From Thalassospira lucentensis (GTDB lineage: Bacteria; Pseudomonadota; Alphaproteobacteria; Rhodospirillales; Thalassospiraceae), in NCBI RefSeq assembly GCF_001613805.1, contig NZ_LPVY01000005.1:248001-312000 (forward strand): a DNA stretch of 64,000 nt, written 5' to 3'. The position numbers were made by a program, and so were the translations under genes. A model generated the notes under the pieces. The model was not told the origin of the DNA and did no database searches. It saw only the letters and a list, made by a program, of their open reading frames with translations. Of this stretch, positions 23,643-37,534 are shown in pieces (position 1 is the first letter of the stretch; each line of letters opens with the position of its first letter).

Positions 23643-25052
23643 ATGACGATTAACGTGACCCACAATGGAACCCCGATCCAAGGGGGCCAGACAGATACCA
23701 TCTTTGCCCTTTCCAGCGGCGCTGGGCGGGCCGGGGTGGCGGTAATCCGGTTATCCGGGCCAATGGCGGGGCCGACGCTCTGTGCGCTTCTGGGGCGCGA
23801 TAACCTGCCAAAGGCGCGCCATGCGATCTATGCGCCGATCCGTGATCCGAAAACGGAAGAACGGCTTGACGATGCGGTGGCGATCTATTTCGCTGGACCG
23901 GCCAGCTTTACAGGCGAGGATGTCGTCGAGCTTCATACTCATGGCGGGCGTGCGGTAATCGACGGTGTTCTTGATTGCTTGGCCGCTCGACCGGGCCTGC
24001 GTATCGCCGAACCGGGGGAATATACCAGACGTGCCTTCGAAAATGGCAAAATGGACCTGACCGCGGCCGAGGGCATTGCCGATCTGATCGATGCCGAAAC
24101 TGCGGCCCAACGCAGGCAGGCCGTGCGCCAGATGGCAGGCGAATTGGGCACCCTTTACGAAAACTGGCGCGCGCGTTTAATGAAGGCATTGGCCTACATC
24201 GAGGCGGATATCGATTTTCCGGACGAAGATTTGCCTGGTGGTATTGTGCCTGTGGTGCGTGGTGATTTGTCATCCGTTCACGGCGAGATGGATAAACATC
24301 TCGCCGACAACCGGCGCGGCGAACGGTTGCGCGAAGGTTTCCAGATCGTGATTCTCGGTGCGCCTAATGCCGGTAAATCAAGCCTTCTGAACCGGCTGGC
24401 AATGCGTGAGGCGGCGATTGTGTCCGAGATCGCTGGAACCACGCGCGATATGATCGAAGTCCATCTTGATCTTGGTGGTTTTCCCGTCACCATGGTGGAT
24501 ACTGCGGGCCTTCGCGAAAGTGGCGATGTGATCGAAACCGAGGGTGTTCGCCGTGCAACCGCCCGCGCGGAGGATGCGGATTTGCGGCTTGTTGTGGTGG
24601 ATCGTTCCGACTGGCCCCACATCGACGCAGAGGCTGCGCGCCTGATTGATGCCAATACGATCCTTCTGGTCAATAAGGTGGATGGTTTGGATGTTGGCGA
24701 TATCCCGACAGTCTGGTCTGGAAAATCGGCAATAGGTGATCGGCTTGAGCTGCCCGTTTTGCCCATATCGGCCATGACCGGGCAGGGGATGGAAAGCCTC
24801 TTGCAACTGCTGGAGACTCGCGTAAAAGAAGGGCTCGATTTTGCGGGACCAGTTCCCCTGACACGGCTGCGGCACCGCCAGGCACTTGAGCGTGCCAGTG
24901 ATCATCTGGATCGCGGATTGCAGACCGATATTGCCGAATTGGCGGCCGAGGATGTTCGCCTTGCCGTGCGTGAAATCGGTAAAATCACCGGACGCGTCGA
25001 TGTGGAAGACCTGCTTGATATTATCTTCGGCGACTTCTGTATCGGCAAATAA
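23643..25052 (+). CDS. mnmE: MnmE, tRNA U34 modification GTPase
   Basis: 469 aa. With MnmG it makes 5-carboxymethylaminomethyl-uridine at the tRNA wobble position. The N-terminal folate-binding domain has ALSSGAGRAGVAVIRLSGP. The GTPase G domain has G1 GAPNAGKSSLLNRL at about residues 239-252, DTAGLR (G3) and NKVD (G4). The C-terminal FCIGK is the conserved CxGK motif. It leads the mnmE-mnmG-rsmG-parA-parB string. Confidence 0.97.
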   Translation: MTINVTHNGTPIQGGQTDTIFALSSGAGRAGVAVIRLSGPMAGPTLCALLGRDNLPKARHAIYAPIRDPKTEERLDDAVAIYFAGPASFTGEDVVELHTHGGRAVIDGVLDCLAARPGLRIAEPGEYTRRAFENGKMDLTAAEGIADLIDAETAAQRRQAVRQMAGELGTLYENWRARLMKALAYIEADIDFPDEDLPGGIVPVVRGDLSSVHGEMDKHLADNRRGERLREGFQIVILGAPNAGKSSLLNRLAMREAAIVSEIAGTTRDMIEVHLDLGGFPVTMVDTAGLRESGDVIETEGVRRATARAEDADLRLVVVDRSDWPHIDAEAARLIDANTILLVNKVDGLDVGDIPTVWSGKSAIGDRLELPVLPISAMTGQGMESLLQLLETRVKEGLDFAGPVPLTRLRHRQALERASDHLDRGLQTDIAELAAEDVRLAVREIGKITGRVDVEDLLDIIFGDFCIGK

Positions 25053-25065
25053 GATTATCAGAAAT

Positions 25066-25081
25066 TGTTTCACGTGAAACA
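25066..25081. repeat. parS site 2
   Basis: Perfect TGTTTCACGTGAAACA, 14 bp after the mnmE stop. Confidence 0.93.
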
Positions 25082-25197
25082 TCGGCCATTTCGATGACAC
25101 GTGGTTTTGAATTAAGACCTGAATAAGACTCGCAAGCTGTGTTGCATTGAGCAGATGTCATGGCTTGGCGTAGTCAAGGAATTCAACGAGGAATTCG

Positions 25198-27096
25198 ATG
25201 TCGGATAACCGATTTGATGTGATTGTTGTTGGCGGGGGCCATGCCGGGTGCGAGGCAGCGGCTGCGGCTGCGCGCATGGGGGCGAAAACCGCACTGGTCA
25301 CACACCGTGCTGATCGTATCGGTGAAATGTCTTGCAACCCGGCTATTGGCGGGCTTGGCAAGGGGCATATGGTTCGCGAGGTCGACGCGCTTGACGGTGT
25401 GATGGGTCGTGCGATTGACCGCGCTGGGATCCAATTCCGAATGCTGAACCGTTCCAAGGGACCGGCTGTGCGCGGCCCACGCGCGCAGGCTGATCGGAAG
25501 CTGTATCGCGAAGCGGTGCAGGATATTCTGGCCAATCAGGAAAACCTGACGATCATCGAAGGCGCGGTTCACGACCTTAAAATTGCCGAGGGCGATGACA
25601 GCCGCGTGACCGGTGTGATCACCGAAGACGGGCGCGAATATGATGCCGGGGCGGTGGTTCTGACAACGGGCACGTTCCTGCGCGGTCTTATTCATATTGG
25701 CGAAAAAACCACACCGGCGGGCCGCATCGGCGATGCGCCAGCTCTTGGTCTTTCGGAGACGCTGGAAAAATTCGGCTTCCGTTTGGGGCGCCTGAAAACA
25801 GGTACCCCAGCACGGCTTGATGGCCGCACCATTGATTGGGCGAGCCTGCAGGAACAGCCGGGGGATAATCCGCCAGATCCGTTTTCATTCCTGAACAGCG
25901 AAATCACCGTGCCGCAAATCCCGTGTCACATGACCTGGACGATCGAGGCGACGCACGAAATTATTCGCGCGAACCTGCATCGCGCACCGATGTATAGCGG
26001 CCAGATCAAGAGCAGCGGCCCGCGTTATTGCCCGTCCATTGAAGACAAGGTTGTGCGTTTCGCCGAAAAGAATCAGCACCAGATTTTCCTGGAGCCGGAA
26101 GGGCTTGATGATCCTACGGTTTATCCGAACGGTATTTCGACCTCATTGCCTGAGGAAGTTCAGCTTGCGATGCTCGCCACTATTCCGGGGCTTGAGAAGG
26201 TCGAGATTTTCCGCCCTGGCTATGCCGTCGAATATGATTTCGTTGATCCGCGCGAGCTGCGCCATACGCTGGAAACCAAGAAAGTCGGTGCGCTGTTCTT
26301 TGCTGGTCAGATCAATGGCACGACAGGTTATGAAGAAGCTGCCGGGCAGGGACTTGTTGCCGGTGTCAACGCGGCGTTGGTTGCGGGCAGTACTGCGGGG
26401 GCGGTTGATCGTGAGTTTGTTCTGGATCGTGCCGATGCCTATATCGGTGTGATGATCGACGATCTGGTGACGCTCGGTACGCGCGAACCCTATCGCATGT
26501 TTACGTCGCGCGCTGAGTATCGCCTGATGCTGCGCGCTGATAATGCTGATCAGCGTCTGACTGGTCGCGGTCTTGAAATCGGTTGCGTTGCCTCGCACCG
26601 CGCGCAAGTTTGGGGTGACAAGAAGCTTGCCCTTGAGGCGGCCAAGCGGACGGTTTCTGATCTGACGGAGACGCCGAATGGTCTCGCCAAGCACGATATC
26701 AAGATCAATCAGGATGGGGTGCGGCGCTCTGCGTATGATCTGCTGGCCTATCCGGACATTGATTTCGATACGCTGACTCGTGTCTGGCCGCAGCTTTCGG
26801 AAATTACTCCGGAAATCCGCGACCAGGTGTCAATTGATGCTCAGTATAAAGGTTACCTCGAACGACAGTCGGCCGATGTTGCGGCCTTCCGTCGGGACGA
26901 GGAATTGCGCCTGCCGCGCGATCTTGACTTCGACAGCGTTGGTAGCCTGTCAGCGGAAATCCGGTTGAAGCTCAAAGAAATTCAGCCTGAAACCATCGGT
27001 GCGGCATCACGTATTCCGGGTGTGACTCCGGCGGCAGTGACCGCTTTGCTTGGTCATATCAAAAGCCACAAACACAAGATTGTTCGTAGCGCCTGA
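25198..27096 (+). CDS. mnmG: MnmG (GidA), tRNA U34 modification FAD enzyme
   Basis: 632 aa. It is the FAD/NADH partner of MnmE. The N-terminal FAD motif is [20 protein letters not shown], followed by [24 protein letters not shown] and [15 protein letters not shown], and [27 protein letters not shown]. The C-terminal helical domain ends with [12 protein letters not shown]. The conserved Cys residues are present. Strong terminator follows. Confidence 0.98.
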
Positions 27097-27133
27097 GACT
27101 CTATCAGACAATTGGGTTGGTCATAAGGTTAGG

Positions 27134-27163
27134 GCAGCACACATATATGTGTGCTGCTTTTTT
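27134..27163 (+). terminator. Terminator of mnmG
   Basis: A 24-bp perfect palindrome (27134-27157) followed by six T. Confidence 0.9.
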
Positions 27164-27186
27164 ATTGTCTGTTGAAGCCGGTGAAA

Positions 27187-27202
27187 TGTTTCACGTGAAA
27201 CA
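27187..27202. repeat. parS site 3
   Basis: Perfect TGTTTCACGTGAAACA in the mnmG-rsmG gap, 24 bp after the mnmG terminator. Confidence 0.93.
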
Positions 27203-27305
27203 TTTTCTTTCTTTTGCCAAAGTTTTCCGTTTTCGACGCGGGAAAAAGTGTTTGTTAGAAAAATCAAGTCTGGTGCGATTCGTTAACGCGGATTATAACT
27301 CGAAC

Positions 27306-27941
27306 ATGCAATCCATTTCAGAACCCGTAAAAACATGGTTTGAGGCCGATTTAAATGTTTCACGTGAAACATTGGATCGTCTTGGACTGTATGCTGATCT
27401 CGTTGTCAAATGGCAGCCGAGGATCAATATTGTTGGTGCCAGCACAGCGGAAGACGTTTGGGCGCGCCATTTGCAGGACTCAGCGCAGCTTTGGTCATAT
27501 CTGAATGAAGTAGTCGGTAGCGGGAAGATCGTTGATTTCGGCTCCGGGGCAGGATTTCCGGGCATCGTTTTGGCTATCTTGGGCGCAAATGACGTGACTT
27601 TAATGGAATCAAACACCAAAAAAACCGTGTTTTTGCTGGAAGCGGCGCGTGTTTGTGGTGTGCTGGCGCAGACAAAGATTGCCCGCGAACGGATCGAAAC
27701 CGCTGCACCGCGTGAAGCGGACGTTATTACGGCCCGTGCGTTTGCGCCACTGCCAAGGCTTCTGGAACTTGGTCAGCGTCATCTAAAACCGGATGGGTAT
27801 TATGTATTGCTGAAGGGACGTGCCTTTGAGGATGAACTGGCTGAAGCACGTGCGGCCGGTTGGACATTCACTGTAACCACCCATGCCAGTCTGGTTGATC
27901 CCGAAGGCGTGGTGATGATTTTGCAAGGAGTTGACCGGTGA
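27306..27941 (+). CDS. rsmG: RsmG (GidB), 16S rRNA m7G527 methyltransferase
   Basis: 211 aa. SAM-dependent; it methylates G527 of 16S rRNA, and loss can give low-level streptomycin resistance. The SAM-binding loop is IVDFGSGAGFPGIVLAI at about residues 75-90. The ATG at 27306 is chosen because it gives the family-length protein; earlier in-frame starts only add non-conserved residues. The NVSRET codons near residue 20 contain a parS site. The stop overlaps the parA GTG by 4 bp. Confidence 0.95.
   Translation: MQSISEPVKTWFEADLNVSRETLDRLGLYADLVVKWQPRINIVGASTAEDVWARHLQDSAQLWSYLNEVVGSGKIVDFGSGAGFPGIVLAILGANDVTLMESNTKKTVFLLEAARVCGVLAQTKIARERIETAAPREADVITARAFAPLPRLLELGQRHLKPDGYYVLLKGRAFEDELAEARAAGWTFTVTTHASLVDPEGVVMILQGVDR
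27356..27371. repeat. parS site 4, inside rsmG
   Basis: Perfect TGTTTCACGTGAAACA in the coding sequence of rsmG, read as part of the NVSRET codons. It is both protein-coding and a ParB-binding site. Confidence 0.93.
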
Positions 27942-28762
27942 CCGACGTTATTGATCTGCCGCTTTCAATCTCTTCCGAGGCCGGTCACCGGCCGCGGATC
28001 ATTGCCGTTGCCAATCAGAAGGGCGGAGTCGGCAAGACCACAACCACGATCAATTTGGCGACCGCACTGGCGGCTGTAAACCAGCGGGTTCTGATCGTAG
28101 ATCTTGATCCGCAGGGCAATGCCAGCACCGGTTTGGGCCTGCGTCCGTCGGAACGGCAGATCAGTTCCTATGACGTATTGATCAATGGCAATACTCTTGA
28201 AGAGGCGCGCAAGCCGACCGCCATTCCGCGGTTGAGTATCGTGCCTTCGGGTATGGATCTGTCAGGCGCGGAGATTGAGCTTGTCGATTTTGACCGCCGC
28301 GAAATGCAGCTTAAGGAATCGCTGGGTCGCTTACCGCATGATGTTGATTACGTGCTGATTGATTGTCCGCCATCGCTTGGGTTGCTGACGTTGAATGCGC
28401 TGGTGGCGAGTGACGCGGTATTGGTGCCGTTGCAGTGCGAATTCTTTGCCCTTGAAGGAATCAGCCACCTCGTGCGCACCATCAAGCGGGTGAAAAAGGC
28501 GTTTAATCCGGCGCTCGAAATCCAGGGCATCGTTTTGACGATGTATGACAAACGCAATAATCTGTCGGCACAGGTTGCCAATGACGTGCGCGATTATTTC
28601 GGTGATGTAGTTTACCGCACGGTGATCCCACGCAATGTTCGTGTGTCCGAGGCGCCGAGCCATGGAACGCCGGTGCTGGTTTATGACATGAAATGTCCGG
28701 GGTCACGGGCATATCTTAATCTGGCAAGCGAAGTTCTGAAACGCGAAGGGGTGAAGGCATGA
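27938..28762 (+). CDS. parA: ParA, chromosome partition ATPase
   Basis: 274 aa. The deviant Walker A loop KGGVGKTTTTINLATAL at about residues 28-45, the Walker A' DLDPQGNASTGLG, and Walker B VDYVLIDCPPSLGLLT are present. ParA binds DNA non-specifically in its ATP state and moves the ParB-parS complex away from the pole. It starts with GTG inside the rsmG stop and overlaps parB by 4 bp (ATGA). Confidence 0.97.
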   Translation: MTDVIDLPLSISSEAGHRPRIIAVANQKGGVGKTTTTINLATALAAVNQRVLIVDLDPQGNASTGLGLRPSERQISSYDVLINGNTLEEARKPTAIPRLSIVPSGMDLSGAEIELVDFDRREMQLKESLGRLPHDVDYVLIDCPPSLGLLTLNALVASDAVLVPLQCEFFALEGISHLVRTIKRVKKAFNPALEIQGIVLTMYDKRNNLSAQVANDVRDYFGDVVYRTVIPRNVRVSEAPSHGTPVLVYDMKCPGSRAYLNLASEVLKREGVKA

Positions 28763-30000
28763 GCGAAGCAAAGAAGCGCGGTTTGGGACGTGGACTTTCG
28801 GCCCTGCTGGGCGAGGAAGACGAGGATGTCGGCGCAGCGGTTGCCGGTGGCAACGAGAATGCAGCTCATCCCGGCCCGGGTGGTACCACACAGCTGATTG
28901 CTATCACCGACCTGAAACCGTCACCATTCCAGCCTCGTAGCAATTTCGATGATGAGGCGATTGACGATTTGGCGGCATCAATCCGCCAGAAAGGCATTAT
29001 TCAGCCCATTTTGGTGCGTGCATCCTCTACTGGCGAAACAACATACGAAATCATTGCTGGCGAACGGCGCTGGCGCGCGGCACAGCGGGCACAATTGCAC
29101 GAAGTACCGGTTCTGGTGCGCGATTTTGACGACCGGGAAACCGCCGAGATTGCTCTGATAGAAAACCTGCAACGGCAGGATCTGTCGCCGCTTGAGGAAT
29201 CCGAGGGGTATAGCCGCCTGATGAGCGATTTCTCGCATACTCAGGAAGCACTGGCTCAGGCGCTTGGAAAAAGCCGTAGTCACATTGCCAACAGCCTGCG
29301 TTTGTTGACCCTGCCGGCACCGATCAAACAGATGTTGTCGGATCGGGTGTTAAGCCCAGGTCATGCACGTGCGCTTTTGGGGGCGGACAATGCGGTCGAG
29401 CTGGCGACCCATATCGTCAGGAAGGGCCTGAACGTTCGCCAGACCGAAAAACTGGTGAAGACTGATGGTGGTAAAACTGCACGCCAGAAGAAGTCTTCAT
29501 CGACACGTGGGATCGAAAAAGATCCAGATACAGTGGCTTTGGAACGCGATCTTAGCAATATGTTGGGGTTAGCGGTAAATATCGATTTTGACGGGGCGGG
29601 GGGTAAAATCTCTGTCCGGTATGAAACGCTGGAGCAGCTTGACGATATTCTGAAACGGCTTAGTCAGGGACGGTTAGGCGAAACGGCGCAAAGCTCCGAT
29701 GATGATCCGCTCGTTCCACAGAATGAAGGTGACAATGAATTCGACTCGATGTTCATCGATGATGAAGATGATAGCGATGGTGATCTTCTTACCGACGAGC
29801 TCGAATCGATTGCCGATGCAACCGACATAGTGTTTGACGTGGATGAGGATGCCGAAAGTGCGTTTTCCGATGAGCCGGAAGGTGACATGCCAATCGAGCA
29901 AGACGAAGTCGGTGAAGAGGCGCTTGAGACATTGTCGGATGCGGAAATTGTGCAAAACAATCGTCTAGCAGAAAAGAAAGCGCAAACGCGAGGAAGCTGA
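28759..30000 (+). CDS. parB: ParB, centromere-binding CTPase with long acidic C-terminal tail
   Basis: 413 aa, about 110 longer than usual. The CTP-binding N-terminal domain has FQPRSNFDDEAIDDLAASI and the GERRWRAAQRA motif, followed by IALIENLQRQDLSPLEE. The DNA-binding HTH has EALAQALGKSRSHIANSLRLL. The usual dimerisation end GGKISVRYETLEQLDDILKRL is at about residues 279-300. The remaining ~106 residues are a low-complexity acidic tail with about 38 Asp/Glu and 4 Lys/Arg. Confidence 0.95.
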   Translation: MSEAKKRGLGRGLSALLGEEDEDVGAAVAGGNENAAHPGPGGTTQLIAITDLKPSPFQPRSNFDDEAIDDLAASIRQKGIIQPILVRASSTGETTYEIIAGERRWRAAQRAQLHEVPVLVRDFDDRETAEIALIENLQRQDLSPLEESEGYSRLMSDFSHTQEALAQALGKSRSHIANSLRLLTLPAPIKQMLSDRVLSPGHARALLGADNAVELATHIVRKGLNVRQTEKLVKTDGGKTARQKKSSSTRGIEKDPDTVALERDLSNMLGLAVNIDFDGAGGKISVRYETLEQLDDILKRLSQGRLGETAQSSDDDPLVPQNEGDNEFDSMFIDDEDDSDGDLLTDELESIADATDIVFDVDEDAESAFSDEPEGDMPIEQDEVGEEALETLSDAEIVQNNRLAEKKAQTRGS

Positions 30001-30089
30001 CCAGGTTTTATCGATATTTCGTTCACGTTAAATGGCCCTGTGCGACTCGATTGCCGGGGCTGTTTTTCTTTGCAAAATATTCGGGTTTG

Positions 30090-31121
30090 TTAACGTCTGC
30101 CCTGTTTTTGACGGGCGACGGCGACCTTGATCATGGCGCGGTGTGCGATGGTTTCCGGGATGGCAAGACCGCTTTTGCAGTCCTTTTCTGCTTCGAGCAG
30201 GATTTGCAGGGCGCGTTGCAGATTGTTAAGAGCCCAATTGTTCAAATTGGCGCGAAACTGATCTGCGGCCTTGAAAAACAGGGGGGGACGCAACGATTTC
30301 ATCGCCTGTTCGGCATTCGTGCCTTGTGCCATCTGGCCTTTGACCAGATGCAGTTTTTGAAAATAGCCGATCATCATGCGAAGTGCGCCAACCGGATTGA
30401 GGCCTTCTTCGACCAGGCGGGTCAGGGCGCTATCGAGGCTTGCGACATTGCCCTGGGATACGGCTTGCACGACATCGTCATAATGGCGGGCGGAACTATC
30501 CCCGACACAGGCCATCGCGTCGGCCAATGTGACCTGACCTTCTTTCAGAGCGTAAAGAGCCAGTTTTTCAAGTTCGCTTCGTGAAATCATCCTGTCAGAG
30601 CCGAGATTACCGACCAGATAGCGTATGGCATCGCGATCAATGCGCAGTTTGTGATCTTCCATGACGGAATTGATCAGGGCTTCGATATCCCGGCCGCTGT
30701 CGGCATAGCAGGGCAGCGCCATGCCATTACCGGCTTTCTCGATCGTCTGACGCAGTTTGGATTTGGACGAAAGGCTGCCGGCTTCGATGACGATCAGGGC
30801 ATCACCGGCGGGATCGGCAAGGAAATCGGCAATTACGGGCGCCTGTGCCTCGCCAATATCGCGGATTCGGATCACACGGCGCCCACCGCCGAAACTGATT
30901 GCGGCGGCTTCATCGCGCAGACGGCTGGCGTCTTCCTTAAGCTGGGCAGTGCTAAGTTCGATTACGCGGAATGGGTCCTTGATATCCTCGACCACGGTTT
31001 TGGCAAGTCTGACCGCACGTTCTCGTACAAGCCCCTCATCCTCGCCATAGATCAGGACGAGTTGCGCCTTGGCATCGGGAGCGCGAAGGAAATTTTCGGC
31101 CTGTGCTGCCTTGAGCTTCAT
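30090..31121 (-). CDS. holA: HolA, DNA polymerase III delta subunit
   Basis: 343 aa. The clamp-loader subunit that opens the sliding clamp. It has the N-terminal KLKAAQAENFLR, LIYGEDEGLVRERAVRL, the LIVIEAGSLSSKSKLRQ stretch and the C-terminal helical collar. As usual for delta it lacks an active P-loop. It runs convergent to parB and follows lptE by 13 bp on the same strand, so they are probably co-transcribed. Confidence 0.94.
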   Translation of the reverse strand: MKLKAAQAENFLRAPDAKAQLVLIYGEDEGLVRERAVRLAKTVVEDIKDPFRVIELSTAQLKEDASRLRDEAAAISFGGGRRVIRIRDIGEAQAPVIADFLADPAGDALIVIEAGSLSSKSKLRQTIEKAGNGMALPCYADSGRDIEALINSVMEDHKLRIDRDAIRYLVGNLGSDRMISRSELEKLALYALKEGQVTLADAMACVGDSSARHYDDVVQAVSQGNVASLDSALTRLVEEGLNPVGALRMMIGYFQKLHLVKGQMAQGTNAEQAMKSLRPPLFFKAADQFRANLNNWALNNLQRALQILLEAEKDCKSGLAIPETIAHRAMIKVAVARQKQGRR

Positions 31122-31134
31122 GGCGTGATATTAC

Positions 31135-31644
31135 CTAACGTCCGCTGCGCAGGCCAACGGCGACCTGATTGGCAAGCTGTCGGGCAAGATTCCGGGCAGC
31201 ATCTGAGCGGGCGGCGGACTCTGCTTCTAGTGAGGCAAAGTCGGAGTCGACAAGGTTGTAAGTTGTTCGGGCGCGAAGCGTGCCTGAACGGAGTATTCTT
31301 GAGTCGGAAATTCGAGAAAGTTGGTACTGGGCGCTCAAAATGTAGTCGGCAATGGTTGCTTCATTGTCCTTGGTATAACCGAGTTCGGAAGTTGATTCAT
31401 CAAGAGTAATATCGAGGGTATATTCCGGCCGAACAGTTTGGCCGCGCGGGGTCAGCGTTTCGACCAGAACGTTACGTGTTATTTGTCCGATTCGGTCTTC
31501 CATCATCGATATTTTGACCCTCGCCATATCTGCCGCGGTACTGTCACCGCCTTTATCCTCGGCATAAAGAGGGCGGAAGCCGCAAGCGGTGAGGCCGGTC
31601 AGGGCAAGCACGGCGATAATCGATAACAGGGCGCGCAACGTCAT
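31135..31644 (-). CDS. lptE: LptE, outer-membrane LPS-assembly lipoprotein
   Basis: 169 aa. The signal peptide ends in a lipobox LTAC at about residues 18-21, followed by GFRPLYAED, the conserved start of the mature LptE/RlpB. It plugs the LptD barrel and helps insert LPS. Its ATG overlaps the upstream ORF stop by 4 bp, so translation is coupled. Confidence 0.92.
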   Translation of the reverse strand: MTLRALLSIIAVLALTGLTACGFRPLYAEDKGGDSTAADMARVKISMMEDRIGQITRNVLVETLTPRGQTVRPEYTLDITLDESTSELGYTKDNEATIADYILSAQYQLSRISDSRILRSGTLRARTTYNLVDSDFASLEAESAARSDAARNLARQLANQVAVGLRSGR

Positions 31645-32330
31645 TCCTCGCTATTTTTTGCGTGATGGTTTTTGCCGAAAGGCGCATGACCATGACGATA
31701 CAATAGTTCCGATCCGATCAAAGGGCAAAACAGAGTTAGGTTCGTGATGAAAGAAAGTCTGAGTTCAAGATCTTTAGCTGAGTCGCTGTTATTTGAAAGA
31801 GACTTGAAGTCGCAGCGCAGGTTCGCAACGGCCGTATTGAAACGACCCTTTGCAAGCTCGTCTACAATTTTGCTTTTCGGCGTATCTTGTAAACTCTGAG
31901 CCTGGGCTTCAGGCACAAAGGTAAAGGTCTGCTCGCCTGTCGCCAGTTTGCTCCAAACCTGACGCAGCCATCGCCAATGGCCGATCAGGCTGCTTTGGGT
32001 AATATGCAAAGGACGATCAAGTGGCACATCTGCCAGAAGCGTGAGGCACAAGATATCACTGCCTATCTGGGAATGAAGCTTTGCCAGATTGTTTTCGATG
32101 ATGTCTGTTGAAACCGGTCCTGCATTTTTTGGCTGGCGGGGAAAATCCTTTTGTTCTTCGCAAGCAGGAAGCAGGCCAAGAATTTCGCACGCGATTGCAA
32201 GTCGCCCAGCGCGCAGATCATCCCCGTATTGTGATAATGCAGGTCGATGAAGGGCCAAGACAAACCCCCATTCACGTGTCAGCGAATGGGGGTTGTATTG
32301 ACCTGACACATATATAGGTGTGTCTGGCAT
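31641..32330 (-). CDS. LeuS-derived ORF: anticodon-binding-domain-like protein, no catalytic domain
   Basis: 229 aa, no HIGH or KMSKS motif and no editing domain. Residues from about 75 on resemble the LeuS stretch after KMSKS: IIENNLAKLHSQIGSDILCLTLLADVPLDR, then GHWRWLRQVWSKLA (compare the GAWRFLxRVWRL of LeuS), GRFNTAVANL, and LTLFCPLIGSELLYRHG (compare LxAPMMPHLAEELW). The C-terminal tail of LeuS is absent. It sits between DUF3576 and lptE, where leuS stands in many alphaproteobacteria. The frame is open and overlaps lptE by 4 bp, so it looks maintained. ATG at 32330; a TTG 6 bp earlier is an alternative. This is inferred by eye from motifs and position. Confidence 0.6.
   Translation of the reverse strand: MPDTPIYVSGQYNPHSLTREWGFVLALHRPALSQYGDDLRAGRLAIACEILGLLPACEEQKDFPRQPKNAGPVSTDIIENNLAKLHSQIGSDILCLTLLADVPLDRPLHITQSSLIGHWRWLRQVWSKLATGEQTFTFVPEAQAQSLQDTPKSKIVDELAKGRFNTAVANLRCDFKSLSNNSDSAKDLELRLSFITNLTLFCPLIGSELLYRHGHAPFGKNHHAKNSEE
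32263..32294 (-). repeat. Hairpin near the start of the LeuS-derived ORF
   Basis: AACCCCCATTC (32263-32273) and GAATGGGGGTT (32284-32294) form an 11-bp perfect stem with a 10-nt loop, covering codons about 13-23 of the ORF. It could slow or regulate translation. Confidence 0.5.
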
Positions 32331-32345
32331 ATCCAAACAGAATGC

Positions 32346-32915
32346 TTATTGTGCGGTTGCGCTGTCAATGCGCAGTTGACGCGCACGGGTCAGAATCGAG
32401 TCTTCCATTGCGGTTACCGTACTTGGTTCAACCACAGCATCTGCCCATTGGTCCGTTCCAACGCGGACCTGGCGGAAGACAGCGACCTTGATTGCGTCAG
32501 AGCGAAGGGCGGTACCGAGGATATACCCCGTAATCTTGAAACGCTCGTTTGGTGTTTCCGGTGGGCTGTACCAATCGGTAATGATCACACCGCCAAACGG
32601 ATCGGCCGAGTTGAGCGGCATGAAGGAGAGCGTATCAAGCGATGCGCGCCAAAGGAAGCTGTTGACGCCGATGCCGGTGCCACCGCCTTGTTGTTTCTCG
32701 TTGTCATCACCGAGAAAGTTAAAACCCTCTGGCCCAAAAAGGGTACCGTCCCTTTTCTGGTCTGCAATTGTTTGAGCACGCCCAGTTGTTCCATCACGTT
32801 TATTTCCTGGGGCTGAGCCCGGATAACTATCATAATCCGATTGGGAACCAGCGCATGCAGCAAGGAGCATGCAGATTGTGATTGGGGCAATTACTCTAAC
32901 AAAAGACAGTCGCAC
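32346..32915 (-). CDS. DUF3576 lipoprotein
   Basis: 189 aa. A signal peptide with lipobox LLAACAG at about residues 17-23 and then a DUF3576 domain: TLFGPEGFNFLGDD, GIGVNSFLWRASLDTLSFMPLNSADPFGGVIITDWY, then ERFKITGYILG. Predicted outer-membrane lipoprotein of unknown function. It leads the operon into the LeuS-derived ORF, 15 bp away. Confidence 0.9.
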   Translation of the reverse strand: MRLSFVRVIAPITICMLLAACAGSQSDYDSYPGSAPGNKRDGTTGRAQTIADQKRDGTLFGPEGFNFLGDDNEKQQGGGTGIGVNSFLWRASLDTLSFMPLNSADPFGGVIITDWYSPPETPNERFKITGYILGTALRSDAIKVAVFRQVRVGTDQWADAVVEPSTVTAMEDSILTRARQLRIDSATAQ

Positions 32916-33159
32916 AGGTTCGTTCCTTTACAGGGCACCATATATTCGTCCGCACTATAAGGCGGGCAGCAATTTCAGCAAACAAAAACATATGTGCTAA
33001 ATTTGTCACTATAATGCAAAAATGTCGCATTTTGATCAGGGTGTTGTTGACTTGACGTGCTTTTGCTGGCTCCATTGGCCTCGAACCGAACGGCGAAAAG
33101 TCGTTCACTAAATTTTTGTTGGGCGGTTTTCCGCACTTGCAAAGACGTTGAGGGAAAAG

Positions 33160-34188
33160 ATGAAAAAGATTCTTGTTGCTTCGAGCGCGCTCGTCGCTGT
33201 TGCTTTTGCCGGTCAGGCATCCGCGTCCGAAAAAATCCAGCTCTCAGTTGGTGGTTATATGGAACAGTGGGCTGGTTTTGCTGATACCGATAACCCTCAG
33301 AACATCCCTTCTACCCGTCTGGGTTCTGATGGTCGTGTAAACGCATTCCAGTCTGACGTCGAAGTTTATTTCCGTGGCTCGACCACCCTTGATAATGGCA
33401 TCGAAATTGGTGCAGTTATCGAACTCGAAGGTGAAACCTCCACTGATCAGGTCGACGAACAGTACATGTTCGTTAACGGTGGCTTTGGCCGCGTTGAAAT
33501 GGGCAAAAACGACAGTGCCGCTGACGCAATGGGCGTAACTGCTCCGGCAGTTGGCCCGGTTGGTGTTAACGACGGCGACATGCAGAACTGGGCGAACGTT
33601 GACCTTATTGACACCGTTCCGTCAAGCGGTGACCAGAAGCGCGTCACCTATTACACCCCGGTCTTTGGTGGGTTCCGCGCTGGCGTTTCCTATGCCGATA
33701 TGGATAACTCGACCAACGACGCTGAAACCGTTGCTAACGGTGAAAATGTCCTTTCTGCTGGCCTCGAATACAAAGGTGACTTCGATGGTTTCTCGCTCGG
33801 CCTCTCGGCTGAAGGCGAAAACAACAACGAAGGCAACTGGTATGGCGCAGGCGTGAACGTTGGCTTCGGCAACTTCACCGTTGGTGGTTCCTACGGCCAC
33901 ACCGAAGACGACTACAACCAGGCCAATGGCGCAGCTCCGCGTGCTGACGATACCGATGCATTCGACATCGGCGTTTCTTACGCAATGGACGCAGCCGCTG
34001 TTTCTCTGACCTATGGTTATCAGGAAACCGGCAGCCAGGAAATCAGCGCTGTTGATCTTGGTTTCGCTTACACCCTCGGTGCTGGCGTTGCTTGGAAATC
34101 TTCTGTCTTCTGGTTCGACGAAGACGTCAATGCAACGACCAATACCGATGGTTATGGTGTTGTTACCGGTATTCGCCTCGACTTCTAA
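33160..34188 (+). CDS. Porin 1 of three
   Basis: 342 aa. The signal peptide MKKILVASSALVAVAFAGQASA is cleaved before SEKIQLSVGG, then a beta-barrel of alternating strands ends in the C-terminal aromatic residue (RLDF) required for insertion by the BAM complex. It belongs to the general porin family of Rhodospirillales. The ATG at 33160 matches the start of its two paralogues; an upstream TTG is ignored. A GAGGG site precedes it. It is the only one of the three whose upstream region is not another porin. Confidence 0.93.
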   Translation: MKKILVASSALVAVAFAGQASASEKIQLSVGGYMEQWAGFADTDNPQNIPSTRLGSDGRVNAFQSDVEVYFRGSTTLDNGIEIGAVIELEGETSTDQVDEQYMFVNGGFGRVEMGKNDSAADAMGVTAPAVGPVGVNDGDMQNWANVDLIDTVPSSGDQKRVTYYTPVFGGFRAGVSYADMDNSTNDAETVANGENVLSAGLEYKGDFDGFSLGLSAEGENNNEGNWYGAGVNVGFGNFTVGGSYGHTEDDYNQANGAAPRADDTDAFDIGVSYAMDAAAVSLTYGYQETGSQEISAVDLGFAYTLGAGVAWKSSVFWFDEDVNATTNTDGYGVVTGIRLDF

Positions 34189-34214
34189 TCCTTCTTAGAT
34201 TAGATGAGATGCTA

Positions 34215-34247
34215 GAAGGGGACGGTTTTCCGTCCCCTTCTTTTTTT
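34215..34247 (+). terminator. Terminator of porin 1
   Basis: An 11-bp perfect stem (34215-34225 with 34230-34240), 4-T loop and seven T. Confidence 0.9.
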
Positions 34248-34924
34248 GTTTGTCAGAGTCATGCAAGTTTTTTTGGGGCGCAATTAGCAAACATCCTGCT
34301 GTGTAAATCCATCAAATGCTGGGACTAAACACTTCTAGCGCCGATAGAAGTCGATCCACGAGTGTAGAAATGCATTAACGATCTTTCATGAACGCTTCGA
34401 AATATTTTGCGAATAAATGACATATGGTCCCGATTAGGTACTCTGCGTGTAATGAGTGCGGTTGGTATCTATGTGTTTTCCCGAAATTCCAACGAGTTAC
34501 ACTTCGTAGGAAGAATATATATAGAGTACCGTTGAGAAATCTTCCTCTGCGCCGGAGTTTCAGATTCTATGCATCAATCTGGCAGACCAAAAACTGGTGG
34601 CTATTTCTTGCATAATTGAGTCTGCGGACGAGAAGTGACGAGCAACTATATAATGAATTTTGGTCATATATTATTAAAATGGATGAATATCTGATCTTAT
34701 ATTATATTTACATAATGTAAAAATGATTTTCAGTCAGCAAAAATGTCAAGAAAAAGGCAAAAATAGTGACTTAATTATCACTAACGTAACTATAATTGTC
34801 CTTTGGTCATTTAAATTAATTGACCATAAGTCACTAAATCCGTTCTACTCTCGCTCAGTGATCAGCCGCCATGCTGTGTGGAATGTGGTGTTGCTGATCT
34901 GCTACAGATCATTAAGAGGGTAAG
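34248..34924. other. AT-rich region upstream of porin 2
   Basis: About 680 bp with no credible gene, clearly richer in A+T than its neighbours. It must carry the porin 2 promoter and probably its control sites. A few short ORFs here have no recognisable domain. The ribosome site AAGAGGG lies just before the porin 2 ATG. Confidence 0.5.
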
Positions 34925-35944
34925 ATGAAAAAGATTCTTGTTGCTTCCAGTGCGCTCGTCGCTGTTGCTTTCGCTGGCCAGGCTTCGGCTTCCGAGCCAA
35001 TTAAACTGTCGGTTGGCGGTTATATGGAACAGTGGGCCGGCTTCTCTGACGAAGACACTACCGCTGCTGGCGGTCGTCCGAATGCTTTCCAGTCCGACAC
35101 CGAAGTGCACTTCAAAGGTTCGACCACTCTTGATAACGGCATTGAAGTTGGTGCGGTTATCGAGCTTGAAGGCGAGACCTCGGGTGACCAGCTTGACGAA
35201 CAGTACCTCTACATCAATGGTGGTTTTGGTCAGTTCAAGCTGGGTAAAGACGACAGTGCAGCCGATGACATGGGTATCACTGCACCGGCAGTTGGCCCGG
35301 TTGGCGTTAACGACGGCGACATGGACCAGTGGACCAACGCATATCTGATCGATACCGTTCGTTCGAGCGGTGACCAGAACCGTGCGACCTACTACACCCC
35401 GGTCTTTGGTGGCTTCCGTGCTGGCGTGTCGTTTGCTGACGACAGCAACCGTAACGGCGCGACCCAAATCGGTGGTACTTCTACTTATGATAACGTCAGT
35501 GGTTCCGGCGACAACATCGTCTCTGGTGGTCTTGAGTACAACCACGACTTTGGCGCTGTAGCACTCGGCCTGTCGGCTGTTGGTGAAAACTCCGGCGACG
35601 GCAGCTGGTACGGCCTTGGTACCAATGTTGGCTTCGGCAACTTCACCGTCGGTGGTTCCTATGGTCACACCGAAGACGATTATGGCCTGAACAGCCGTAA
35701 TACCGATCTTGACGCGTTTGACATTGGTGTATCTTACTCCATGGACGCTGCTGCCGTTTCCCTGACCTATGGTTATGAAGATTTCGGTACCGGTGACATC
35801 AGCGCGGTTGACCTTGGTCTGCGTTATGCTCTTGGTGCTGGCGTTTCATGGCGTTCGTCGGTCTTCTGGTTCGACCAGGAGAACGATACCACTGCCGATA
35901 ATGACGGCTACGGTGTTGTAACTGGTATTCGTCTCGACTTCTAA
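34925..35944 (+). CDS. Porin 2 of three
   Basis: 339 aa. The signal peptide is identical to porin 1 through FAGQASAS. The mature barrel is close to porin 1 and porin 3, and diverges mainly in loops, as at DEDTTAAGGRPN near residue 45. Ends RLDF. It is preceded by its own long AT-rich region, so it is probably transcribed separately from porin 1. Confidence 0.93.
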   Translation: MKKILVASSALVAVAFAGQASASEPIKLSVGGYMEQWAGFSDEDTTAAGGRPNAFQSDTEVHFKGSTTLDNGIEVGAVIELEGETSGDQLDEQYLYINGGFGQFKLGKDDSAADDMGITAPAVGPVGVNDGDMDQWTNAYLIDTVRSSGDQNRATYYTPVFGGFRAGVSFADDSNRNGATQIGGTSTYDNVSGSGDNIVSGGLEYNHDFGAVALGLSAVGENSGDGSWYGLGTNVGFGNFTVGGSYGHTEDDYGLNSRNTDLDAFDIGVSYSMDAAAVSLTYGYEDFGTGDISAVDLGLRYALGAGVSWRSSVFWFDQENDTTADNDGYGVVTGIRLDF

Positions 35945-36493: not shown

Positions 36494-37534
36494 ATGAAAA
36501 ACATATTGATCGCGTCCAGTGCAATCGTCGCTGCTGCGTTTGCCGGACAGGCTCAGGCGTCCGAGCCGATTAAATTGTCGGTTGGTGGTTACATGAACCA
36601 GTGGGCCGGTTTTGCCGATCAGGAAGTCGGTGATCGCAACAACGCCTTCCAGTCCGATACCGAAATTCATTTCAAGGGCTCGACCACCCTTGATAACGGT
36701 ATTGAAGTTGGCGCGGTGGTCGAGCTAGAAGGCGAAACGTCCAGTGACCAGATTGACGAGCAGTACCTGTATGTCAGCGGCAATTTCGGCCGCATCGAAA
36801 TGGGCAAAAACGACAGCGCAGCCGATTCGATGCAGATAGTTGCACCAGCAGTCGGCCCGGTTGGCGTTAACGATGGTGACCTCGACATTTGGGTTAACTC
36901 CTATCTGATCGATACCACCATTCCTACTGGTGACCAAAACCGCGTGACCTACTTTACGCCGAGCCTCGGTGGCTTCCGTGCGGGCGTTTCGTTTGCCGAT
37001 GATAGTAACCGCAACGGTGCAACCGAAATTGGTGGCACTTCGACCTATAACAACGTTAGCGGATCTGGCGACAACATCGTTTCTGGTGCCCTTGAATATA
37101 CCGGTGACTTCAACGGTATTTCACTTGGCGTTTCCGCGATTGGCGAAAACTGGGGTGAAGGCAACCTTGTTGGCGGCGGTCTGAATGTCGGCTTTGGTAA
37201 CTTCACAGTTGGCGGTTCGTATTCTCACACCGATGACGACTATGGCTTCAGCGAAGGCAGCAGAAATCCTGACGATACCGATCAGTTCGACATCGGTGTT
37301 TCCTATGAAATGGATGCTGCAGCTGTATCCCTGACCTATGGCTACGCTGAATATGGCAATGGCAGCCGTGGTAACGGCACCGGTGAAATCAGCACTGCCG
37401 ACCTAGGCCTTGCTTACACCCTTGGTGCCGGCGTTGCCTGGAAATCTTCGATCTTCTGGTTCGATGATGAGGTCGATGGTGCAGAAGACAATGACGGCTA
37501 CGGCGTTGTGACCGGTCTGGCACTGACTTTCTAA
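36494..37534 (+). CDS. Porin 3 of three
   Basis: 346 aa. The signal peptide is slightly changed (MKNILIASSAIVAAAFAGQAQA). Same barrel as its neighbours, with longer surface loops such as the one with GNGSRGNGTGE near residue 295. It ends LALTF, with the terminal Phe. Its greater divergence suggests an older copy. Confidence 0.93.
   Translation: MKNILIASSAIVAAAFAGQAQASEPIKLSVGGYMNQWAGFADQEVGDRNNAFQSDTEIHFKGSTTLDNGIEVGAVVELEGETSSDQIDEQYLYVSGNFGRIEMGKNDSAADSMQIVAPAVGPVGVNDGDLDIWVNSYLIDTTIPTGDQNRVTYFTPSLGGFRAGVSFADDSNRNGATEIGGTSTYNNVSGSGDNIVSGALEYTGDFNGISLGVSAIGENWGEGNLVGGGLNVGFGNFTVGGSYSHTDDDYGFSEGSRNPDDTDQFDIGVSYEMDAAAVSLTYGYAEYGNGSRGNGTGEISTADLGLAYTLGAGVAWKSSIFWFDDEVDGAEDNDGYGVVTGLALTF

Follow-up and report, generated by a model that had tools for sequence, protein, structure and literature searches.

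In the 64,000-nucleotide stretch of Thalassospira lucentensis DNA analysed here (the window), a small open reading frame (ORF) stands where leuS, the gene of leucyl-tRNA synthetase (LeuRS), would be expected. An earlier note, made from the sequence alone, had read it as the anticodon-binding part of LeuRS surviving as a separate protein, either as a tRNA-Leu-binding factor or as a slowly decaying relic. What is this ORF, where does it come from, and what might it do as a protein? Our reading, to which we give a probability of roughly 0.4, is that the native leuS was displaced and its stump retained as a putative non-catalytic adaptor for tRNA(Leu) or another RNA.

The ORF and its surroundings

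The ORF, referred to here as mini-LeuRS, is the frame delimited in the earlier note, read from its ATG (Table 1); an alternative in-frame TTG start at 32336 would give a protein of 231 aa. As that note had described, the frame is stop-free and coupled to lptE, with positions 31641-31644 shared by the two genes. On the upstream side, the stop of the DUF3576 gene is followed by 15 bases and then by the ORF start. The product of the lptE-like gene scores 22.8 bits with Pfam LptE, slightly below the cut-off of 23, and that of the holA-like gene scores 21.3 bits with PF06144, for which the cut-off is 21. No Rfam match was found at E 0.1 across window positions 30000-33300, and a PHROGs search gave no match.

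Table 1. Features at the mini-LeuRS locus (window coordinates)
Feature	Position	Strand	Remarks	Basis
DNA polymerase III delta subunit-like gene (holA)	30090..31121	minus	downstream of lptE	
lptE-like gene	31135..31644	minus	4-bp overlap with mini-LeuRS ORF	
mini-LeuRS ORF	31641..32330	minus	229 aa from ATG	
Residues 79-214, LeuRS anticodon-binding domain	31689..32096	minus		hhalign, residue conservation, Foldseek
Residues 23-78, variable linker	32097..32264	minus	replaces ~600 missing LeuRS residues	alignment
Residues 1-22, N-terminal tip with YNPHSL..EWG	32265..32330	minus	putative LeuRS N-terminus (YN-x7-W)	
DUF3576 protein gene	32346..32915	minus	upstream neighbour of ORF	Pfam PF12100, E 1.5e-43

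Beyond the DUF3576 gene lie three tandem paralogous porin genes on the plus strand with near-identical starts (33148-34188, 34925-35944 and 36494-37534), the first of which alone was run against Pfam Porin_4. Over window positions 24000-34250, the genome G060, assigned to the same species, is just 89% identical, and its ORF 62%. Genomes of other species, G009 and G025, are 92-93% identical over 24000-27180 and 99.4% in LptE. The locus at 24000-34250 is probably a recombined mosaic.

Homology to the anticodon-binding domain of LeuRS

With the NCBIfam profile leuS_bact, residues 89-219 of the 231-aa version match profile positions 621-762 of 843 (E 2.4e-5); the score falls far under the family cut-off, as would be expected for a part of the enzyme. 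At E 0.01 the same profile matches 19 of the 29 family members described below. When the 29 genus sequences, taken as a profile, were aligned to a profile of 16 native LeuRS enzymes of the order, hhalign returned 96.2% (E 2.5e-9), with mini-LeuRS columns 81-208 corresponding to native residues 624-770 of 856; aligned to the genus's own LeuRS, it gave 82.6% (E 9.6e-6). In a profile search of PDB sequences the best match was Thermus LeuRS, residues 651-791 (E 2.5e-8), and LeuRS accounts for 16 of the 18 chains found up to E 10, with two weak, unrelated chains besides. Pfam Anticodon_1 (PF08264), which does match the genus's full LeuRS, is silent at E 0.1 in all 29 members, so that standard annotation would miss mini-LeuRS.

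HIGH-type and KMSKS-type signatures and the catalytic core are absent from all 29 aligned sequences, and the editing and C-terminal domains are likewise absent, the alignment covering native residues ~624 to ~770 of 856. The alignments thus indicate that the ORF has lost ~600 residues containing HIGH, the editing domain, the catalytic core and KMSKS, together with the C-terminal domain, whose loss goes beyond what the earlier note had listed.

The same homology appears in predicted structures. AlphaFold predicts helical structures both for the window's member and for one deep-branching member, with pLDDT values of 76.1 and 81.4 and pTM values of 0.79 and 0.82; the linker carries a predicted helix at residues 39-52. 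Foldseek lists nothing but LeuRS, at probability 1.00, in its first 48 rows for the window's model and in the best 50 rows for the deep-branching one, with TM-scores normalised by query of 0.37-0.49 for both models. Judged by these models, mini-LeuRS has the helical-bundle fold of the LeuRS anticodon-binding domain. Query-normalised TM-scores below 0.5 and the lack of a Pfam match might also be expected of a helical protein that has no relation to LeuRS, was inserted where leuS had been and resembles it by chance; that such a protein would be singled out as LeuRS by three independent profile comparisons, and by Foldseek in each of its first 48 rows for the window's model, while lying at the leuS site of relatives, makes this explanation highly improbable. 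Profiles, synteny and the two predicted folds concur in identifying the 229-aa ORF as a reduced LeuRS with the anticodon-binding domain, and both the sequence profiles and the predicted fold bear out the likeness that the earlier note had seen by eye.

At the other end of the protein, the pattern Y.S..[YF]NPH.L...WG is present near the start of all 29 members. When the 11-residue tip motif was scored against all 842 native LeuRS windows, the best was the N-terminus (YNFKETEAKWQ, z ~4.6), although another LeuRS window scored 15.7 against its 16.0, and in a 20-residue scan the N-terminus came second, not first. Thermus LeuRS begins EKYNPHAIEAKWQ, a likeness to the tip that is eye-catching, though not significant alone. 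A second segment of the PDB search pairs the tip with Thermus LeuRS residues 2-20, at an independent E of 380 that is no evidence by itself. The tip of mini-LeuRS, a part on which the earlier note had not remarked, is probably the old LeuRS N-terminus, in which case the missing ~600 residues were internal and the variable linker stands in their place.

Genomic place and distribution

In all 16 loci of the order that were compared outside the genus, a full-length leuS (~850 aa) lies directly upstream of lptE, and in 14 of them DUF3576 precedes leuS; no DUF3576 match was present in the stretch read for the other two. These loci agree with the place between DUF3576 and lptE that the earlier note had given for leuS, on the lptE side in every one and on the DUF3576 side in all but two. 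Within the window's genus, the arrangement DUF3576, mini-LeuRS ORF, lptE was found in 29 of 29 genomes (the window's own, 27 relatives and one more from a further search), stop-free in every case. By gene order, the position of mini-LeuRS is orthologous to that of the native leuS.

Outside the genus, 996 genome rows (219 from the order, 383 from the class and 394 from the phylum, in overlapping samples) showed no small form. The order search matched 76 of 248 genomes; 29 of these are the genus, and the non-genus matches listed lie in frames of at least 769 aa. At E 1e-14 the class search matched 4 of 385 genomes: two belong to the genus, and in the others the matching frames span 852 and 739 aa. 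The phylum search matched 4 of 398, all of the genus. L065 and G008 are one genome, and L065 is thus not an independent case.

Several candidates were set aside. A 275-aa frame in G034 is the C-terminal half (profile 588-842) of a leuS split over two contigs, with profile positions 1-550 on another contig, and a 557-aa frame in G047 starts at a contig end. A full leuS broken in assembly was rejected for the ORF itself, given that the frame is stop-free and the short form recurs in 29 assemblies. As for a viral copy, a single weak match among viral contigs (L145:5001-5165), with a short HWRWLRAVW-like stretch and no long frame, was taken as chance.

Purifying selection on the ORF

Does selection act on the protein? 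Across the 29 genus genomes (IQ-TREE, GY model), the omega of mini-LeuRS is 0.328, with lnL -13719.2 compared with -14043.4 at omega 1, a difference of 324 units. By part, omega is 0.340 for the N-terminal tip, 0.390 for the linker and 0.281 for the anticodon-binding domain. A neutral simulation (substitution-only, on the same tree with an arbitrary root, starting from the L012 sequence) left a mean of 1.8 of 29 frames open and a maximum of 3 in 200 runs, against 29 of 29 observed. A random ORF is ruled out by this conservation and by omega; retention in related genomes and dN/dS across the genus, both raised in the earlier note, gave the same place in 29 of 29 genomes and a value of 0.33.

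The conserved residues also carry information. Thirty-one columns are invariant in the 29 members, 8 of them in the first 22 residues. At 34 positions of the domain part, conservation is 90% or more. Of these, 17 have the native majority residue, including G90, D92, D101, P103, W119, R120, W126, A167, A169, R172, P203 and G214, and 11 hold residues absent from the 16 native LeuRS enzymes (V102, P107, L115, W121, R123, F175, F194, L200, F201, C202 and L210). An old fold kept together with new constraints gives the picture of a new role and not of decay.

The omega of the ORF is nevertheless ~4 times that of its neighbours (0.094 for lptE, 0.082 for DUF3576), as might be expected if it were a translated leader that couples lptE translation and whose amino acids are of little weight. 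The junction lends itself to such an arrangement: the 4-bp overlap is kept in 21 of the 29 genomes and the genes abut directly in 2, and a scan limited to the sigma-70 consensus found no promoter-like site in 31000-33200. Five genomes, however, have a 4-base gap instead of an overlap (the start was unresolved in 1 of 29), and an omega of 0.33 with 31 invariant residues, 8 of them in the first 22 and distant from the coupling site, runs against amino acids of little weight. We regard a leader as improbable.

More delicate is the window's own lineage. In the closest trio (G000, G009 and G025) omega is 0.94, indistinguishable from 1 (lnL -1103.98 versus -1104.91), or 0.68-0.83 by pairwise counts; 38 codons carry amino-acid changes and 12 carry silent ones. 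These values would suit a functionless relic that is slowly decaying, at least in this lineage; yet just 24-36 changes separate the pairs, so the power of the trio omega is low, and all 31 invariant residues hold in the trio. For the genus as a whole, the omega of 0.33, the values of 0.30-0.39 in four other genus subsets and the excess of open frames over the neutral expectation speak against it, and we consider this explanation quite improbable. The earlier note's slowly decaying relic is thus disfavoured for the genus as a whole, but it may still apply to the window's closest relatives. An absence of protein constraint, which would point to a pseudogene, is not what the genus-wide omega of 0.328 suggests, the trio standing at 0.94; the window's own twig may be relaxed, or may be too short to tell. 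With dN/dS of the ORF close to 1 in the window's closest relatives (the trio L009, L010 and L011), the neighbours lptE and DUF3576 are still strongly constrained.

Replacement of the native LeuRS

A functional leuS elsewhere in the genome, which the earlier note had predicted, was located: the same genome encodes a complete LeuRS of 1001 aa at G000:C20:331675-334665, with KMGKR in place of KMSKS, and it is of a foreign type. Full-length matches to the genus LeuRS at E 1e-100 occur in only 2 of 299 phylum genomes, both of the genus, with two others partial. In a scan of named genomes, the relatives outside the genus among the matches listed share 37-50% and come from Actinobacteria, Planctomycetes (Phycisphaerae), Bacteroidetes and other groups. 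A tree was built of 47 LeuRS enzymes, in which 27 of the 80 fetched foreign loci are included (28 were picked, and L143 gave no frame and was dropped); here the genus enzymes are set apart from the native ones by a branch 1.05 long and supported at 100/100. Their group also takes in actinobacterial enzymes and L066 (97.6/99), with weak support for the exact sister (43.7/83). No match to the genus LeuRS came from a search of plasmids. That the genus LeuRS is a horizontal replacement of Actinobacteria/Planctomycete type is well supported by these comparisons; the donor is less so. As an essential enzyme exchanged in this way, the genus LeuRS is a rare case.

From which LeuRS, the native or the foreign one, does mini-LeuRS descend? 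In AU tests, grouping of the ORF with the genus's own LeuRS was rejected (p 0.037); native grouping was accepted (p 0.50), as was a deeper placement with all foreign types (0.55). The ORF branch is very long in the anticodon-binding-domain tree, which holds 15 of the 29 mini sequences, and 4 of the 15 tested members, all from the deep clade, have a mean score slightly better against foreign than against native LeuRS. A copy of the genus's own LeuRS was rejected on the AU result and on its weaker profile E of 9.6e-6, against 2.5e-9 for native LeuRS. Place and profile scores favour descent of the ORF from the native leuS.

Proposed function of mini-LeuRS

The analysis establishes homology to LeuRS, the shared place, the replacement, retention throughout the genus and purifying selection, and an origin as the stump of the native LeuRS, kept under purifying selection, is highly probable. 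The course of events is well supported: an ancestor of the genus acquired the foreign LeuRS, which became the enzyme that charges tRNA(Leu), and the native gene, lying between DUF3576 and lptE, then shed in frame the parts for catalysis and editing and the C-terminal part. It left a small helical protein made of the anticodon-binding bundle, the probable N-terminal tip and a variable linker. This remainder may have been retained because it acts in trans without catalysis, as an adaptor holding tRNA(Leu) or a similarly shaped RNA; it could serve as a tRNA chaperone or as the targeting subunit of a tRNA-modifying or regulatory partner.

By analogy, the simplest reading is that the module would still hold tRNA as it does within the enzyme, without charging. 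We put a tRNA or RNA adaptor role somewhat short of even odds, and it is a more tentative proposal that the module has become a new factor of translation or regulation, specific to the genus, that would act on tRNA(Leu) in trans. Two features of the sequence weigh against an adaptor: the LeuRS C-terminal domain is missing, and the protein is not markedly basic. The pI of mini-LeuRS ranges from 5.8 to 9.2 (6.5 for the window's member, with a net charge of -2), values that are neutral on the whole and not overtly basic; native LeuRS anticodon-binding domains are more acidic, at pI 4.7-5.9.

The same lack of basic character would fit a retained bundle that no longer contacts RNA and serves as a protein-protein module, with the LptE/LPS assembly products or the foreign LeuRS as partners. 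The newly fixed residues are mainly hydrophobic or aromatic (W121, F175, F194, F201, C202), and every one of the 29 genomes retains the operon partners DUF3576 and lptE, though that shared place is simply an inheritance from leuS. LptE is an outer-membrane lipoprotein; unlike it, mini-LeuRS has no signal peptide evident in its sequence. Moreover, at half of the positions conserved in the domain the residue is that of the ancestor that bound tRNA, and we judge a protein-protein module unlikely, if worth keeping in mind beside the RNA adaptor that we prefer.

Relation to known systems and significance

Compared with native alphaproteobacterial LeuRS (TIGR00396), mini-LeuRS shares the anticodon-binding domain, probably the N-terminal tip, and the DUF3576/lptE place. 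It differs in having no HIGH, KMSKS, editing or C-terminal domain, in its size (229 versus ~850 aa), in its omega of 0.33 and in the 11 fixed residues that the 16 native enzymes lack.

The nearest parallels come from synthetase-derived proteins. DALRD3, as outlined in the relevant part of PMC7237682, is a separate protein with an ArgRS anticodon-binding domain and without a synthetase catalytic motif, which binds tRNA-Arg and guides a methyltransferase. Mini-LeuRS is similarly a separate protein with a class I anticodon-binding domain and without that motif; DALRD3, in the same account, has a further N-terminal part, is vertebrate only and has METTL2 as its partner, whereas mini-LeuRS is LeuRS-derived and bacterial. 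LeuRS-I of Sulfolobaceae and LeuRS2 of Halobacteria are additional LeuRS-derived proteins that, in the summary given by PMC9437257, have lost or strongly reduced charging and keep tRNA(Leu) affinity. They resemble mini-LeuRS as extra LeuRS-derived proteins, the affinity being known for LeuRS-I and LeuRS2; they are near full-length duplicates with catalytic domains (PMC9437257), in contrast to the stump of a displaced gene. The isolated C-terminal domain of human mitochondrial LeuRS, by the description in PMC3927953, binds tRNA and acts without catalysis. It too is a non-catalytic LeuRS part, in the human case one that works by itself on tRNA, but it is an engineered construct (PMC3927953), and this domain is the one missing from the mini form. 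YadB/GluQ-RS and HisZ are synthetase-derived single-module bacterial proteins that, as PMC9437257 presents them, keep the catalytic core, the opposite part to that kept in mini-LeuRS. A full-text search of open-licence papers for LeuRS stumps, and under the genus name, found nothing.

To the known free-standing synthetase parts, mini-LeuRS adds a well-supported genus-wide case, remarkable as the stump of a displaced essential enzyme. It offers a view of the aftermath when an essential enzyme is replaced by horizontal transfer: the non-catalytic tRNA-side module of the loser is kept genus-wide under selection. That the stump is kept as a separate protein under selection suggests that it has a job of its own. 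Since Pfam misses mini-LeuRS, similar stumps near other displaced synthetases may hide among hypothetical proteins. Class I anticodon-binding domains are known mainly within synthetases, and a natural free-standing bacterial LeuRS domain gives a direct handle on what such a domain does alone. If our reading is true, an essential enzyme, once displaced, would have become a tRNA adaptor devoid of catalysis without leaving its old place.
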